From Candidatus Altimarinota bacterium (GTDB lineage: Bacteria > Patescibacteriota > Gracilibacteria > BD1-5 > UBA2023): a DNA stretch of 64,000 nt. Both the position numbers and the translations under genes were made by a program. Positions 32,195 to 47,315 of this stretch are shown here, in pieces (positions within the stretch are counted from its first letter, which is position 1; each line of letters starts with the position of its first letter). The notes under the pieces are model-generated. The model had not been told where the DNA came from and made no database searches. It saw only the letters and a list, made by a program, of their open reading frames with translations. The stretch spans positions 186,001 through 250,000 of the forward strand of contig JABFSX010000004.1 in assembly GCA_013268835.1 (NCBI GenBank), written 5' to 3'.

Positions 32195-35100
32195 CTAATA
32201 TCCTGTTAGGATATGAAGGGAAACTGGGGCAGCATAATTCCCTGCTGGTTGTTCTGTGCCAACCTTTGCACCAAACTGAACTCGATACGTATAAACATAT
32301 TTATCACCATTTGTATTAATAAGCTGGGGTTGATTTGTGATCAATGCTCAACCTTGAATCGTCGAAAGTGTTCCTGAATATGATCAATTAAATTTTTCAT
32401 ATCCAAAACCATCAATTCCAGTCCAATGAGAAACTATAGAACCAAGAGAATCCAATTCTGATCCAGATAGGGTAAGAGTAAATGGGGCACCAACCGTTTG
32501 AACCGTAATAACGAATTCATCTGGAGAAGAATTTTTTTGTATATTTCCTACCACTTTCCCAATATCAACACTCGGTTGACTTACGCTCCACTCAATCGCA
32601 TCAATATATATCGTTCGTTCGATAAAACTCTGATTTCCTGCAAAATCAGATACATAGAGACGAAATCGATATTTTCCATATGGAACTCCTGCAAGCGTAT
32701 GTATACTTGTTGTACTTGTGATACTTGGAGTACCTGAAATATATGAAGATGCTATATTTGGTCACCAAACAGACGTATTCCATCTTTCGAGTGTCACTCA
32801 TACAGTTGATGTATTAATTCCTACATCCGCATCCGTATAATTTGTAGTAACAGAAAAATTTCCAATAGGAAGTAATGATCCTGAAAGAAGAGAAATAGAA
32901 GTAATGGTTGGTGGAGTCAAATCAGTATTGAGCCCAATCCATGAAAAATATCTAGCTATCTTGGTACCCATAGTAGTAAATAATCCACCAGCTAAAAGAT
33001 TTAATTCTTGGTCTTTCCCAAGTGCATATACCGTACTTCCTGCATTGGGATTGAAAGTTGTGTCTAATACTCCCGCAGAAGAGTATCTCGCAATACGATT
33101 TCTTGTACCTCAAGTTACGGTAGTAAAGGTTCCACCAAATATGATATTACCAGAATTTTCTATCAGAATAGTATACACAACTGGGGTTCCACCAGTAACA
33201 TTTGGATTAAAAGTATTATCAATAACACCAACAGGACTCACTCTTGCTATATTATTTCTTCCTGCACCTGCGACATTTGTGAATTGTCATCCTAATACAA
33301 TAAATCCATTAGTTTGAATTTTTATATCCCATACTGCTGTTCCAGTAAATGCTGGATTAAAAGTATTATCCCATGTTCAGGTAGAATTCAATCTTCCAAT
33401 TCTCGTTCTTGGATTTCCTGTAATCGTTGTAAATGTTCATCAGATAAGAATCTTATTGTCTGACTGTATTGCTATTGCATAAACATTACCACCAGCATTA
33501 GAATCTATAAATGTAAGATCTACTGTTCCATCAGTATTAAGTCTAGCGATATTTCTTCGAGTTTGTAGGCCAAGTGTGGTAAAAGTTCATCAGATAAGGA
33601 TTTTTCCATCAGAGGGCTGAATAGCGATAGCCCGAATCTGGCTTCCTACAGTTATACTCGCATTGAAGGTAGTATCGAGTGTTCCATTAATATTAAGACG
33701 AGCAATATAATTCCGAGGAGATCATCATACGGTTGTGAAGGTTCATCAGATAAGGATTTTTCCATCAGATTGAATAGCGGTTGCATAGACAATACCATTG
33801 GCAACATTCGGATTAAACGTAGTATCTATAAATCCACCAGTACTCACACGAGCAACTCGATTTTGAGTTATTCATCCCATAGTAGTAAATGCTCATCCCA
33901 GAATAATCTGATTATCTGCCGTTGGAGAAAGAGTCCATACTGTATTATTTGGAACAGGATGATATGTGGTATCTACATTTCCAACTGGATGAGCGTATGC
34001 GATATATCGATTTGCAACTCCAAATATATTTGTAAAAAGTCATCCGATTCCAATAGTGCCATCTGATCGTGATCAGAGAGTGTATACTGTAGTATTAGCA
34101 CCAGGGTTCATGGTAGCATCAAGAACTCAAGCAGAAGAAACTCGAGCAATACGATTTCGTCCTACTCATCAGACAGTGAGAAAGGCTCATCCAAGAACAA
34201 TATTTCAACTCGATTCTAGGAGGAGGGCCTGTACAGTTGTGCTAGCATTTGGATTAAACGCATCAAGAACTCAGGCAGAAGAAACTCGAGCAATATTATT
34301 CCTTCCGGTAACTCATACAGTAGTAAAAGTTCCACCGAATATAATATTCCCACTTACACTCTCGATAATTATCGAATAAATGATCGGAATACCGCCAGAA
34401 ACATTTGGATTAAATGCTTCAAGGAGTCAAGCAGAAGAAACTCGAGCAATACGATTTCGTATAGTTCATCAAATAGTAGTAAATTGTCATCCGATGACTA
34501 TGGATCAATTACTTTGTAGTGCTATAGCATATACTGTACCATTAGCATTTGGATTAAATGTAGCATCTACGGATCCATTGATATTGAGACGAGCAATACA
34601 ATTATAGGTAATTCATCCTATAGCTATAAATGCTCATCCAATGAGAATCCTTCCATCAGGTTGAACGACAATCGATCGAACCTCGGTTCCTGTGGTTATA
34701 TTTGGAATAAAGGTAGTATCGAGTGTCCCATCGATATTGAGACGAGCAATACGATTTCGACCCACTCCTCATACGGTTGTGAAGGTTCATCAGATAAGAA
34801 TTTTTCCATCAGATTGAATAGCGGTTGTATAGACAATACCACCAGTAATATTTGGATTTATAAAAGTAGTGTCTAACATTCATCCTACTCCGATACGAGC
34901 AACTCCTCACATAGCAACTCCTCATACAGTAGTAAATGCTCATCCAATAATAAACTGATTATCTGTCGTTGGAGAAAGAGTCCATACTGTGGAATTCGGA
35001 ACATCCCAAGCTGGTACATACCCGAGTGCAAATGTTGAAGCCCCACAAGTGTAAAAAGAAACCTTGGAATCAATAACCTGAGCCTGACTAATCGGCTTTG

Positions 35101-35719
35101 TTGCTGTTCAGTCAGGAAGACACTCTCCTTGTGAATCCGTCATCAATCCACTGGTATTATAATCAGATTCGCTCGCATGATGAACAAGAAGATTAACCCA
35201 AGATCCATCAGGAATATCTCCTGCATCAACCGAAAGAAGCACCGGTTTAGAAAAAATAAGATGATTATCTGGAATTCAAAATTCAAAAGTAATCACACGA
35301 CTTGATTGAGACTTTCAGAACTTTTGTTCTGCGATAGTATGCTGTTGGTTTGTTGTAGGGCGAACTGCGATTGATCCTGGATCAATATTTGATTGAGATA
35401 TATTTCGGATAAGTGTATTATACAAGAGATCACTCGTGACAATACGATCCCCTATTTCCCCTGACATTCTTGAGCTTCTTTCAATAACATAAGTCGATCC
35501 CAAAAGCTCTGAATGAGAATCAAAAATGGTTACATCTGTTAATCCTGATCTTTCTTTATCATATCTTTCTCTCTCCTGAACCAATGTCTGAATGCTTTCT
35601 CTTGAATCAAATGCAACAGAAGAATCTATTCCTGAATAAGCAAATACCGATAGTGGTGAAACTACCTGAATAAGAATAAGAACTATACTGATGCAACGAT
35701 GAAAATAAGTGGAAACCAT
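32195..35719 (-). CDS. exported delta-60 repeat protein, about 1174 aa
   Basis: Signal peptide [19 protein letters not shown] from ATG 35719. Residues 230 to about 930 hold about 14 tandem delta-60 repeats of roughly 50 residues (pattern: [30 protein letters not shown]), predicted to form beta propellers. An Ig/Big-like region ([22 protein letters not shown]-type) and the C-terminal domain ending [20 protein letters not shown] follow. Many Gly are TGA, often in the GG pairs. Probably a large secreted or surface-displayed adhesin or structural protein. Confidence 0.88.
32900..35030 (-). repeat. array of about 14 delta-60 repeat units, about 150 bp each
   Basis: Regularly spaced ARI(G/L)-type segments (for example near 34893, 34740, 34588, 34438, 34287, 34140 down to about 32944) recur every 150 bp within the giant gene. 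The units are diverged but share attcatc/tcagata-type cores. Confidence 0.8.
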
Positions 35720-35890
35720 TGGTATATGTATTAGTATAATACTAGCACAATCGATATTGCTTAACAAAAACCAACTGCTATTAATGAATAAAAATATATT
35801 GACGTATTTAATATAGAGTTTTAAATACACAAAAGTACATTAAAAATAAAAAATATTGAATATTAATATATATTTTCTATACTCATACCT

Positions 35891-37041: not shown

Positions 37042-37141
37042 TTGACACTATGATAGTTTTAGTATTGCTTTTTTTGTAGGATGTAGTACACTACTCCTAT
37101 GGCAATTCGTCCATTTTTCTTCTTTTTGGAGGACTTCAATC
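37042..37141 (+). promoter_or_regulatory. duplicated leader with strong ribosome site, copy 1
   Basis: About 100 bases closely similar to 37788-37885, including TTGACACTAT, GTTTTAGT-TTGCTTTTTTT and GGCAATTCGTCCAT, ending in GGAGG (37128-37132) 9 bases before ATG 37142. TTGCTT-N16-TACACT may be the promoter. Such a Shine-Dalgarno is unusual in this window. Confidence 0.65.
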
Positions 37142-37678
37142 ATGTTCAAGAGACTTCTTGCAACTGCAGCGCTTATCCTGTCTAGCTTCTCGGCTCAGGC
37201 TGGGATAGTCACCATCTACGATGCACTTCTGGATTGGAATATCGGCACAACCCCTGAAAACGGCGGAAGTGCTACGGTCTACTATCGTGAAAGCGACAAT
37301 AGGCTGAAATCTTTCCAGGTAAACGTAGCCCCATTCGCAGATAGCCTCGCCACAATCGATCATCCTACTGATGATTGGCTTACTCCGATGGATGGATCAA
37401 ACATCACATTTGAGCCGGTCGATCTCTACAGCATCATTGCTGAAGATGTTCTGTACATCAGTTCATTGGGGATGAGCGTTGCATCATGGCGACAAACTCC
37501 GATGGATGGTGTTATGACCTTCCCCTATGGCCTCGCCAGTTGGGATATCGACATAAAATCGACGGTATCTCCGGTGCCAGAACCTCAGAGTTGGATACTC
37601 ATGCTGACTGGACTTGCTGTGATGATCCGCATGAAGAAAAAGAAAACTGAGTTGCCACAAGCTTTACGGTGTGCGTGA
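37142..37678 (+). CDS. PEP-CTERM exported protein 1 (standard-code stop TGA)
   Basis: A 178-residue protein with signal peptide LLATAALILSSFSAQAG and, near the C-terminus, VPEPQSWILMLTGLAVMIRM plus KKKK: the PEP motif, membrane helix and basic tail of PEP-CTERM sorting signals handled by exosortase. It has GC-richer codons, a strong Shine-Dalgarno, and ends at TGA 37676. If UGA is read as Gly here, translation would run 31 codons more, through the terminator hairpin, to TAG 37769. This marks the gene as foreign, standard-code DNA. No exosortase gene is seen. Confidence 0.85.
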   Translation: MFKRLLATAALILSSFSAQAGIVTIYDALLDWNIGTTPENGGSATVYYRESDNRLKSFQVNVAPFADSLATIDHPTDDWLTPMDGSNITFEPVDLYSIIAEDVLYISSLGMSVASWRQTPMDGVMTFPYGLASWDIDIKSTVSPVPEPQSWILMLTGLAVMIRMKKKKTELPQALRCA

Positions 37679-37705
37679 GAAATCATCTCATACTGACGGC
37701 AACAT

Positions 37706-37746
37706 TGAGTCCCCCTGAACTACAGGGGGACTTCATTTTTTAAAAA
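37706..37746 (+). terminator. terminator after PEP-CTERM gene 1
   Basis: AGTCCCCCTG / CAGGGGGACT stem with a short loop and T-rich tail, GC-richer than other terminators in the window. Confidence 0.88.
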
Positions 37747-37787
37747 AAATACACACCTAACTCTATATTAGATATTAAAAAAATAAC

Positions 37788-37885
37788 TTGACACTATACG
37801 AGTTTTAGTCTTGCTTTTTTTATAGGATATAGTAAACTATTCAGGTGGCAATTCGTCCATATTTTTCTTTTCGGAGGGTTTCATC
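37788..37885 (+). promoter_or_regulatory. duplicated leader with strong ribosome site, copy 2
   Basis: Second copy of the leader at 37042-37141. TTGCTT-N16-TAAACT matches the candidate promoter of copy 1, and GGAGGG (37873-37878) precedes ATG 37886. Confidence 0.65.
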
Positions 37886-38410
37886 ATGTTTAAGCGTCTT
37901 ATTGTGCTCATCGCACTGACACTGTCTGGTTTCACGGCTCAAGCTGGGGTTGTAACCCTGACGGATTTCTATCTCACTTGGGACATTGGCACAACCCCTG
38001 AAAACGGCGGAAGTGCTACCATCCACTATTACGATGGAGGCTCCAATTTGGAAAACTTATTCCAAGTATCCGTGTCACCGTGGGAATCGATCCTCCATAA
38101 CTCGGGTGGAAAAATCAATGAATGGCTCATTCCGATGATGGGATCAGATACCACATTCGCTCCTGTCTCCCTGGATAGAATCAGGGGAAGTGAATCCATA
38201 TTTGATACCTCTATGGGAACTGGCTATACATTCTGGAGCGGTAACCCGATGGATGGCGGGATGAGCTTTCCTGAAGGCTACGCAAAATGGGACGTCCAAA
38301 TATCAGCCGTCCCTGAACCGCAGAGCTGGATACTCATGGCGAGCGGGCTCCTTGCCCTTGTCACGATTCGAAAAAAGAAAATCGGATTGCCAATGAGTTC
38401 GATTGCATGA
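37886..38410 (+). CDS. PEP-CTERM exported protein 2 (standard-code stop TGA)
   Basis: A 174-residue paralogue of the preceding protein: MFKRL start, signal peptide ending TAQAG, shared block WDIGTTPENGGSAT, and C-terminal VPEPQSWILMASGLLALVTI with a RKKK tail. It ends at TGA 38408; under code 25 it would continue about 67 codons into the converging gene. Tandem duplication of the first gene with its leader and terminator. Foreign origin as for gene 1. Confidence 0.85.
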   Translation: MFKRLIVLIALTLSGFTAQAGVVTLTDFYLTWDIGTTPENGGSATIHYYDGGSNLENLFQVSVSPWESILHNSGGKINEWLIPMMGSDTTFAPVSLDRIRGSESIFDTSMGTGYTFWSGNPMDGGMSFPEGYAKWDVQISAVPEPQSWILMASGLLALVTIRKKKIGLPMSSIA

Positions 38411-38447
38411 TACGAGTGGGTAACCATCTCTATCAGCATCAAAAATA

Positions 38448-38478
38448 AAAACCCCCTGGTAATCCAGGGGGTTTATAT
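38448..38478. terminator. terminator after PEP-CTERM gene 2
   Basis: AAACCCCCTGG / CCAGGGGGTTT with loop TAAT. It lies within four bases of the end of the converging FecR-domain gene (38482). Confidence 0.88.
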
Positions 38479-38481
38479 TAA

Positions 38482-40164
38482 CTATTTCTTTATAGTAATA
38501 GAAGTAAACGTTGCCGTAAATGGTTGCGATCAATCACTCTTATTTCAAACTAAGAACTGAGATGGAGAGATAGTATTATTAAGCACAAATTCTACATGAT
38601 CAGGACCATAACTCGTCACAGTACCGTATGAGTCAAGATCATTATCCCAACTTCAGCCAGTTCGATGAATTTTTATTCAACCTCAAAAATCCACAAGATA
38701 ACCATTCGCAGGCAAAGAATCAAACTCAATTCTAATAGTCTTATTTTTCAATCAAAGCCAAGAAGAATCAGGATTTGTATAGATAAGCTTATTTGTTCAA
38801 GTTATCGTTCTTGTTCCACTTGCATTAAAGGTATACTTTCTCTTTGATCCACGAATAGCATTATTTGTATTAGGAAGTCCTGTAAATTGAGTTACTCATA
38901 CCGTTTTATAGGAGCCACCCTTACACATTGAGAAATAAGGAATAAAAGTCTTATTTTGTTTTTTACATTCCAATCTTGCAAATTTTCTTGAATTAATAAC
39001 CTCATCAGTATTTTCATCCAAGTCTATTACATTTTCTTCATCAATCATAGTGGCTGCATCTGCAATGTCAGGAGCAGATACTAGATCTCATCCTTCGATG
39101 AAAAGTGATAATACTGCGGTATTACCCAATTGTAATGTATTATTTAATTCATCATTCAATAATACTTTTGCTGGAGCTGACAGCCCTCATGCCAAAAGGA
39201 GCTGAGACATATATTTTACATCAGATTCTGCATTCCTCTTGATCCAAGTATCAACATATGAAGTTACTGGAGTCTTAGTAGCCATTACTATATTTGCAGA
39301 ACCATCATCATATGTTAATGTATTTCATGGACTCACCACAGGAGCGACAGCACCATCAATATCTTCAACACTAGCGATAGCAGCAGCAGCTATTGTAAAT
39401 GTTTTTACTCCTCATAATGAGGTTGTTTTTGGAATTGGCTTAATTGGATTTGCTAGATTAGTTGAATCAATTACATTAATAATATATTTTCATCCAATTT
39501 TCTGGAGATCTACACTTGTTCCTCGAACTCAGGTTACCACGCCACCACCACCAAGATTGATACCAGTACCGGTAAGAATACGTCCCCAGAGTCGACCATC
39601 AGAGAGGATCACTTCAGCAACAGTATTACCATCAAGTTCTCAATATTTAAGTTCCACATTTGTAGCCGTACTTAAACGAAGAAGTGAATTATCAGCTACA
39701 AACATAATTGTACCAGTTCCATCTGCAGCAGTATCTACCACATCTCCTTCGTATAGAGGCATCCCTACTCCTGCAGCAATAGGAGTCAAGCTTCCACTTC
39801 TATAAACATTGACTGTACCATAGAATTCACTAATAGTACCAATAGAGAGATCCGCAAGAACTCCTCCAAGATGTCCGCATCGTCATTTACCACTACCATC
39901 AACAGCTACCCATACATTATCGATTGGCTCACCGCTACAATCCTTATCTTTGAGATAGTCATTTGCACTTACTCATGAGAGCATATTTGCGTTGAGTGCA
40001 TTTCCATTAGCATCAAATGCACCAGTGAGAACCTGCCCAAGAGTTCCTGGCCCGATTGGCATGCGAGTAAATGGAGAACTATCTGGAAATAGTATTCCAG
40101 CCGCTACCGCAGCTATCCCAATAAAAACAACTACCGATATAGGAATAATGACTATTTTTTTCAT
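38482..40164 (-). CDS. membrane-anchored FecR-domain protein, 560 aa
   Basis: N-terminal anchor VVVFIGIAAVAAGILF, a short LTGAFDANGNALNANMLSG segment shared in style with the next gene, then a FecR domain: FYGTVNVYRSGSLTPIAAG, EGDVVDTAADGTGTIMF, NSLLRLSTATNVEL, LSDGRLWGR and VVTGVRGTSVDLQ. The C-terminal 150 residues are beta-rich and Ig-like (VEFVLNNTISPSQFLV). Around ten TGA-Gly. FecR domains here usually mark extracytoplasmic binding or assembly proteins rather than iron sensors. Stop TAG 38482. Confidence 0.8.
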
Positions 40165-44921: not shown

Positions 44922-45998
44922 TTATCTTCCTGCAGCTGCTTCGAGTTTTGCTGTTTGATCCGCAATAGCAAGAGCATCAAGGATATCTCAGAGATCTCCT
45001 GTCATAATCACAGGAAGATTTGGGAAATTCATATTGATACGATGATCCGTGAGACGATCTTGTGGAAAATTATAGGTTCGGATTTTTTCACTTCGATCCC
45101 CAGTTCCTACCAGTGCCAGTCGAGTCGCTCCTTCGAGTTGGGCCTTTTTCTCTTCTTCTATTGCATAGATACGAGACTTCAACACCGACATAGCCGTGAG
45201 CTTGTTCTGGAGTTGTGATCGCTCATTCTGACATTCTGCCACTACCCCCGTCGGAAGATGGACGATACGGATCGCAGAATTCGTCTTATTTACATGCTGC
45301 CCTCCTGCTCCACTCGCTCGACAAGCAGTAATCTCCAGATCTTCTTCTCGAATCACGATATCGATATCTTCTGCCTCGATCATCACTGCAACGGTTGCTG
45401 TTGAAGTATGTACTCGACCATTTTTCTCTGTTTCTGGAATTCGTTGTACTCGATGTACTCCTGACTCATACTTGAACCGAGCATATGCTCCAGCGCCTCA
45501 TTGGATTTTGAATATTCCTTCTTTGTATCCTCCAGCATCATTCCAAGACTCACTCATCACCTCGAGTGAATATCCCTCTTTTCGAGCAAATACCTTGTAG
45601 GCCTCAGCGAGTTCGTGAGCAAATAATCCTGCCTCATCTCATCCAACTCCAGCACGAACTTCAAGGATAATATCCTTCTCATCATTTGGATCTTTGGGAA
45701 GGAGTGCAATCTTGATCTCCTCTTCGAGTTCTGGAATTCTCTTATCTGCATCAGCAATCTCAGATTTCATCATCTCGAGCATCTCAGGATCTTTCTCATT
45801 GCTCACGAGTCACTTGACCTCATCATAATTCGCATACAATTGTTTGTATTCACGGTAGAGTTCTACGGTACGTTGCATAGATTTTTTCTTCTGATTCACC
45901 GCCTTGAGACGCTTGAGATCAGAATAAATAGTTGGATCAGTGAGCTCTGTTTCTAGGGCTTCGTATTCAGTGATGATGTTGTCGAGTGAGAATTTCAT
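44922..45998 (-). CDS. prfA: peptide chain release factor 1
   Basis: RF1 ends translation at UAA and UAG. A 358-residue protein with the catalytic GGQ in [18 protein letters not shown] and the RF1-type PxT tripeptide in [17 protein letters not shown] (RF2 would have SPF). Five TGA-Gly codons. Since UGA is glycine here, RF1 alone suffices, and no RF2 is present in the window. ATG 45998 gives the family start ([15 protein letters not shown]). The upstream region is highly structured. Confidence 0.95.
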
Positions 45999-46015
45999 AA
46001 ACAAGTGAAGTGAGG

Positions 46016-46135
46016 AAAAAGAATGTGCACATTCTTTTTCGAATGAACGCAGTTTTCCAAAAACATAAAATCAAGAGGACAAAGTCCGATGTATTTTGTT
46101 TCACAAAATACAAATGTATATTATTTTATGTTTTT
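46016..46135 (-). ncRNA. structured leader upstream of prfA
   Basis: On the minus strand this precedes the prfA ATG. A 13-bp perfect outer stem (46059-46071 with 46123-46135) encloses two hairpins, GGAC-AAA-GTCC (46077-46087) and GTATTTTGT-TTC-ACAAAATAC (46091-46111), a three-way junction. Nearer the start codon is a 24-bp perfect palindrome centred at 46027/46028. The arrangement suggests a regulatory leader, but a mobile repeat or a tRNA-linked element is also possible. Confidence 0.45.
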
Positions 46136-46282
46136 GATGAAGTGCATTATATAGAAAAATCAAAAAAGTCGAGCGAAAAACACTTCTCCGATTTTTGTCT
46201 ATACAATCTCATATACTCGCTTTGACTTCAAATCATTTTTCTATACTATCTCGGTATATTTTTGAATATACAATTGATATTT

Positions 46283-46366
46283 GCCCAGATGGTGGAATGG
46301 TAGACACGGAGGTCTCAAAATCCTCTGCCTCACGGCTTGCGGGTTCAAGTCCCGCTCTGGGCACCA
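46283..46366 (+). tRNA. tRNA-Leu (CAA)
   Basis: Class II tRNA with a long variable arm (CTGCCTCACGGCTTGC), acceptor GCCCAGA/TCTGGGC, anticodon loop CTCAAAA giving CAA, T-loop TTCAAGT, CCA encoded. The closing anticodon-stem pair is U-U. Confidence 0.93.
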
Positions 46367-46412
46367 TAAATAAAACAACATAAAAAAGTTCAATAATAAG
46401 TTTTCTCTTTTC

Positions 46413-47315
46413 ATGGTTAGAACAAAAGTAACTCCCATAACTGGCCTCTGGCTCGATAGAGTCAATCCTCCACTCGATGAGATTGATGCAGTTATGACGA
46501 AGTATGATTTTCATGAACTGGATCGTGATGCAATCCTAGAATCCAATCAATATGCTCGTCTTGATGCGTACGATGACTATATATTTCTCGTGCTTCATTT
46601 TCCAAAATATGATTCTAATTCTGAACGATATATTCAGAATGAACTCAATATATTCGTAAGTCGAGACTACCTTATCTCATTTCGCTACTACCAATCGACA
46701 ACGATGCGTCGACTCTATGAGAAATATGAAACTGATCTCAAGGCTGGAGTACAAGAATCCCCTGCTATTCTCCTCTATGCGATTATCGAAGGATACCTTG
46801 ATAAGACAATGAAGATGTTGGAACGTTTTGCAAAAGATCTCAAAACTCTCGAAAGAGAACTTTTCTCAGCTCGTGGAACGGATACCATCCGAAACATCAT
46901 GACAAAAAAACGGAACATCATCACGCTCAAGCACATGATGAAACCACAGATTCTCGTACTGCGAATGATAGAAAACCAGATGAAGGCACGATTCTCTGAC
47001 GAAGTAGAGCTCTACTTCGAAAACCTCGAGGATAAACTCGATAAAATATTCTCGGAAATCCAACTCCTTCAGGAAAATGTTGACTCTATGGAAGATACCC
47101 TCAAGAGTATCTTCGAACTCGAAAGTAATACCACCATCAAATACCTCACTACATTTTCAGCATTTATGCTCCCTCTTACCCTCGTTACGGGAGCATTTGG
47201 GATGAATGTAGAATCTTGACTCTTTAGTAATTGGGTTGTCATAGGAACAATCATATGAGTAACCTTTCTTTTAGTTATACTCACTATATTCCTTGGGAAG
47301 AAAAAAATAATATAA
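46413..47315 (+). CDS. corA: CorA-family magnesium/cobalt channel
   Basis: A 300-residue protein with a long cytoplasmic helical domain (VKDLKTLERELFSARGT-type region; LLQENVDSMEDTLKSI stalk helix) and two C-terminal helices, the first ending in the signature GAFGMNVESG, where GMN forms the selectivity filter. Two TGA-Gly (after MNVES and in the last helix). Imports Mg2+ as a pentamer. Confidence 0.92.

Follow-up and report, generated by a model that had tools for sequence, protein, structure and literature searches.

Tandem PEP-CTERM genes ending at TGA in a UGA-glycine Gracilibacterial genome suggest repeated capture of host-type surface-protein genes

How does a cell that reads UGA as glycine come to hold two neighbouring genes that both end at TGA? 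The question is raised by a stretch of 64,000 nucleotides (the window), which represents positions 186001-250000 of a 396-kb contig. The genome holding the window (G000; 1.36 Mb, 94% complete) was examined over 99% of its length. The features concerned, in coordinates of the window, are as follows.

37042-37141, + strand: leader of gene 1, with TTGACA at 37042, TGGCAATTCGTCCAT and a GGAGG ribosome site; homologous to the leader of gene 2
37142-37678, + strand: gene 1, putatively exported PEP-CTERM protein of 178 aa; TGA stop, no in-frame TGA
37676-37771, + strand: the 31 residues, as far as TAG, that read-through under code 25 would add to gene 1
37707-37742, + strand: gene 1 terminator, with its stem at 37707-37733 and a T-run, upstream of the next in-frame TAA/TAG
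37788-37885, + strand: leader of gene 2, matched in its core by that of the gene in the congener G010 (0 of 500 shuffles as good)
37886-38410, + strand: gene 2, paralogous, putatively exported PEP-CTERM protein of 174 aa; TGA stop, no in-frame TGA
38408-38611, + strand: the 67 residues that read-through under code 25 would add to gene 2
38449-38474, no strand given: hairpin terminator separating gene 2 from the FecR-like gene that faces it, from folding and a terminator scan
38482-40164, - strand: FecR-like gene, convergent with gene 2
44922-46514, - strand: RF1-type release factor, which bears on the reading of UGA as glycine

TGA accounts for 24% of the glycine codons in 642 long ORFs of this genome, and the ORF coverage of contig C1 is 92% with code 25 compared with 42% with table 11. 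A tRNA with the anticodon UCA was detected, the RF1-type protein is the sole plausible GGQ-motif protein, and RF2 was not found in the scanned 99% of the 94% complete assembly. The genome thus has the in-frame glycine TGA, the UCA tRNA and the lack of RF2 that define a UGA-Gly (code 25) genome, in agreement with the sequence-only reading that had placed the pair inside one. Because the tRNA-UCA and RF1 alone are accompanied by glycine codons that are 24% TGA, UGA should not terminate translation here. A tmRNA, which rescues ribosomes stalled on stop-less messages, was found by the Rfam model and missed by ARAGORN.

Genes 1 and 2 lie in tandem, and their proteins are 49% identical. By inspection, both proteins start with MFKR, a hydrophobic stretch and AQA-G, resembling a signal peptide, and both end with VPEPQSWILM..., a helix and then K/R residues. 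Both pass the NCBIfam model TIGR02595 (22.4 and 17.9 bits for a cut-off of 16), whereas only gene 2 passes Pfam PF07589 (21.2 for a cut-off of 20.7; gene 1, 17.7). The leaders are duplicated (alignment score of 128 vs 26.9 ± 4.7 for shuffles). The tandem paralogues with PEP-CTERM tails, GGAGG sites and duplicated leaders, which had been described from the letters alone, were all confirmed at their places. The strong terminators claimed there stand in part: G+C-rich hairpins follow both genes (-20.8 and -22.6 kcal/mol, z about -5), but the T-run of the second is poor when read on the + strand, and the terminator scan assigns this hairpin to the - strand. Both genes do end at TGA, and under table 25 their frames run on for 31 and 67 residues, past the two hairpins, which are placed ahead of the next in-frame TAA or TAG (31 and 67 codons on). 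A promoter scan of the leaders showed no sigma-70 promoter scoring above chance for either gene. By inspection, TTGC is seen in the leaders, but the GG 12 bases ahead of it (sigma-54-type -24) is absent. Structure modelling by AlphaFold on three sequences gave a pLDDT of 40 and was set aside.

The codon usage of the pair is GC-richer and foreign, as had been proposed. The GC3 is 0.51-0.52, and the synonymous codon likelihoods of genes 1 and 2 fall 3.0 and 3.6 sd below those of resident genes; the other lowest-scoring ORFs look by eye like spurious antisense frames. TGA is used in none of the 28 glycine codons (chance of about 4e-4 at 24%), and GGC is used in nine of them, compared with 5% in residents. 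High expression is not the reason for these codons, because the highly expressed genes of the genome have a GC3 of 0.31-0.39 (0.34-0.37 for groEL, rpoB and an elongation-factor-like GTPase) with little GGC. The evidence supports the view that the pair is foreign, standard-code DNA of Gram-negative type.

The genome was screened for standard-code ORFs ending at TGA, a screen that foreign genes ending at TAA or TAG escape. Most candidates lay on contig C6, and elsewhere the pair alone was judged convincing. C6 (58 kb) is phage-like and in standard code, with 45% GC, 37% TGA stops and PHROG matches to DNA polymerase, dCMP deaminase and endolysin. It is either a contaminant of the bin or a code-11 phage of the Gracilibacterial lineage or of its host; the presence of a standard-code phage indicates that the bin is imperfectly pure.

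The pair is not a one-off, since seven other genomes of the order carry orphan PEP-CTERM genes. A profile of the pair found a relative in the congener G010 (E 1.6e-6), and three of the five congeners have no PEP-CTERM gene. Of 77 genomes in the order, nine gave a TIGR02595 match above the cut-off, and sampling by a PEP-CTERM profile favours the detection of such genes; the weak matches in two of them (G023 and G002; L058, L059) look false and were rejected. The accepted genes are in G000 (two genes), G010, G016 and G017 of family f1, and in G065 (a tandem of three), G068 (a tandem of two, one adjoining rplL and one adjoining a relative with a VPLPA tail), G069 (a tandem of two and two more) and G070 of family f3. 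They are flanked by genes with in-frame TGA. Both G000 genes and those of G010 and G017 stop at TGA, and that of G016 stops at TAA. The sequence-only reading had named orthologues ending at TAA or TAG at the same point as evidence against it. The nearest relative, in G010, ends at TGA, and the genes with a TAA stop in other genera are not orthologous to the pair.

In G010, valS and the M23-peptidase gene converge on a gap of 732 bp that holds the PEP-CTERM unit, whereas the same gap measures 39-43 bp in G000, G008, G009 and G011. The comparison indicates a clean insertion of ~690 bp with four empty sites. For the G000 locus, no clean empty site was found in relatives; FecR-hyp-CHASE2 is conserved in them, but MGMT and PhnA do not adjoin it.

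An assembly or binning chimera, which the earlier reading had asked to exclude, would fit a composition unlike the surroundings and a bin that also contains the standard-code phage contig. However, the pair is enclosed by resident genes within the 396-kb contig, its leader is homologous to that of the congener G010, and in seven other assemblies TGA-free PEP-CTERM genes form similar insertions among UGA-Gly neighbours. A chimera is therefore very unlikely and, in our judgement, close to negligible.

Family f3 is the UGA-richest, and its 13 PEP-CTERM genes use TGA in 0 of 242 glycine codons, compared with 71-81% in residents. Their stops are TAA in 12 genes and TGATAA in the other, so that they can be read correctly in either code. 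Their GC3 is 0.21-0.39, with GGC and GGG, and the genome average is 0.14. Between G069 and G070, rplJ-rplL are 97-99% identical, whereas the adjoining PEP-CTERM gene is 34% identical. Similarly, the flanks of the tandem pairs in G069 and G068 (the L050/L051 locus) are 71-72% identical, whereas the PEP proteins are 32% identical. The untranslated regions of these loci, both leaders and 3' UTRs, are nevertheless homologous (0-1 of 500 shuffles for most pairs, and for one UTR alone in some). A gene that diverged in place should adopt the codon bias of its genome, and the f3 genes did not; we therefore read these loci as coding-sequence replacement within a retained slot.

The main rival to this reading is codon selection on a resident, fast-evolving gene. 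The PEP-CTERM genes would then be long-resident Gracilibacterial surface genes in which selection, for instance on expression or mRNA stability, disfavours TGA and maintains GC-richer codons, with no recurrent transfer. The homologous UTRs within genera and the two loci common to different species could reflect vertical descent and count against capture; the f3 genes also have good sigma-70 promoters, and TGA is little used by rplJ and rplL as well. However, rplJ and rplL have a GC3 of 0.07-0.10 and use neither GGC nor GGG, the reverse of what the PEP genes show, and the G000 pair exceeds the GC3 of highly expressed genes. High expression was accordingly rejected as the reason for TGA avoidance, as neither the G000 pair nor the f3 genes fit it. 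In addition, four genes have a TGA stop, which is impossible for resident genes, and the G010 unit is an insertion. We regard long residence as unlikely.

Recurrent capture of host-type PEP-CTERM surface genes by UGA-Gly Gracilibacteria and other Patescibacteria is, in our assessment, the probable explanation. With similar genes in at least seven related genomes, the pair suggests that the bacteria on which these cells live are a recurrent source of surface-protein genes for them. The captured genes might instead be silent passengers, i.e., unused host DNA that is disappearing in the absence of selection. The TGA stops with predicted stop-less transcripts in G000, G010 and G017 would agree with this, as would a patchy distribution in which three of the five congeners have none. 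However, the open frames are intact throughout, and the f3 stops are code-compatible. The f3 pairs share 87% protein and 81.5% nucleotide identity, with many synonymous and few amino-acid changes. Moreover, passive uptake should also have brought in host genes of other kinds, and the TGA-ending ORF screen of G000 gave no convincing case. Silent passage is thus quite improbable, and the f3 genes are probably in use, as judged from their sequences.

The 3' UTRs of the f3 genes contain conserved elements just after the stops (L050, L051, L052-L054, L056, L057). One set of genes has AAAAAGGAGAAAAATTA ahead of the terminator, and the tandem-pair set has a bulged hairpin around AATGCATTTCTGATTTTTTCAGATAATTGTC. 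The leaders of the rplL-adjoining genes L052 and L054, from two species with coding sequences about 50% identical, share the palindromic stretch TAAGCAAATACGTATTTGTTAA, which is possibly an operator or RNA element.

PEP-CTERM was originally attributed to species that possess an outer membrane, exopolysaccharide genes and EpsH (PMC1569441). In Haft 2006 (PMC1569441), PEP-CTERM and EpsH occurred together, with the exception of Chlorobium tepidum, which has two PEP-CTERM proteins without EpsH. The sequence-only reading had not expected an exosortase, and the search for epsH/xrt agrees: exosortase (EpsH, PF09721) had no match at E <= 10 in G000. None scored above the cut-off in the 77 genomes of the order, and none was found in 18 further PEP-CTERM-bearing Patescibacteria (11 outside the order and seven of the order). 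The 11, in which PEP-CTERM matches exceeded the family cut-off (L133-L152), come from a set of 379 other Patescibacteria; all are outside the class of G000, and five belong to one family, f29. Several of their proteins look genuine. No earlier report of PEP-CTERM genes in Patescibacteria was found in the literature searched.

The best NCBIfam match of gene 1 is the NF038129 family (E 5.7e-7) and that of gene 2 is the flocculation protein PepA (NF033554, E 1.9e-7), both mostly over the tail, and membership was rejected in both cases (30 bits for a cut-off of 65, and 31.2 for a cut-off of 80). The earlier proposal of a standard-code Gram-negative donor is upheld as to the type of DNA, but the donor itself, like the suggested reading of the genes by a mixed population, is unproven, as no relative was found in plasmid and phage records or in bacterial genomes at the sensitivity used. 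For gene 1, no donor was found in a scan of genome contigs. For an f3 pair, a contig scan with poor patterns matched nothing but the MAG of the query. The viral contigs searched likewise gave no donor; in the plasmid search, an f3 gene alone matched, to a 36% identical PEP-CTERM relative on a Roseomonas plasmid.

In the proposed capture, the symbiont would take up host DNA, and whole small transcription units (leader, ribosome site, gene and terminator) would enter intergenic sites, often in tandem; at some loci, the coding sequence would be replaced between conserved untranslated regions. The G000 tandem would be a recent acquisition whose donor was a Gram-negative bacterium of standard code, most probably the host or prey. 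Without an exosortase, the proteins may be exported by the Sec signal peptide and retained in the membrane by the uncleaved C-terminal helix, displaying a host-type matrix domain at the surface for adhesion or mimicry. In G000, translation would pass the UGA to a transcript end without a stop codon, if the terminators work. In that topology, the read-through tail would stay cytoplasmic and need not harm the exported domain, whereas the stop-less transcript would. Such stop-less translation suggests that the pair is poorly expressed or not yet adapted, and by its sequence it is probably a recent arrival that is not yet code-adapted and weakly or not productively expressed.

The genes might also be kept host-readable for use elsewhere. 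They would act, or once have acted, in the host cell after transfer of symbiont DNA or RNA, the symbiont handing over genes or messages that standard-code ribosomes alone end correctly and thereby altering the host matrix. The genes are indeed TGA-free, readable in the standard code and equipped with their own signals, and some of their stops are obeyed by standard-code ribosomes alone. However, any delivery route would be hypothetical, patescibacterial T4SS are mostly without relaxase (PMC12102498), and the f3 promoters are of sigma-70 types that the symbiont itself could use. We give action in the host only a slight chance.

The pair resembles the PEP-CTERM/exosortase proteins of Gram-negative biofilm bacteria in its signal-peptide-like start, PEP motif, C-terminal helix and basic end, and in its single-gene units, long leaders and diverse middle regions. 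It differs in the lack of an exosortase in G000, in the sigma-54-type -24 GG, not seen by eye in the leaders, and in the genetic code. Some phages of Gracilibacteria and Absconditabacteria are readable in both codes (PMC10746230). These code-11-compatible phages share with the present genes the lack of in-frame TGA, dual readability and the recipient class, whereas the present genes encode chromosomal surface proteins and four of them end at TGA. A member of the UGA-Gly class JAEDAM01 lives in Zoogloea flocs and has type IV pili and ComEC (PMC11393006), and PEP-CTERM proteins are needed for Zoogloea flocs according to work cited in that paper. These episymbionts are likewise UGA-Gly Patescibacteria among floc formers, the kinship of G000 being judged from the code; PEP-CTERM genes in the symbiont are not reported there (PMC11393006).

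The altered code acts as a built-in mark of foreign origin, so that gene flow into the symbiont is directly readable. If the capture reading is true, hosts are a repeated source of biofilm-matrix surface proteins for Patescibacteria. This would be a testable way in which hosts are recognized or mimicked, and a captured gene would indicate which host an uncultured symbiont has. The pair also makes it testable how an RF2-less cell copes with a gene ending at UGA.

Two further observations concern the window. A 32-base block (GGCACAACCCCTGAAAACGGCGGAAGTGCTAC) is identical in gene 1 (37243-37274) and gene 2 (near 37987), despite the 49% protein identity, and gene conversion is possible. Upstream of the pair, positions 32195-35830 encode a 1211-aa protein with ten DUF5122 beta-propeller repeats and 43 in-frame TGA codons, which is a candidate for a further surface protein.
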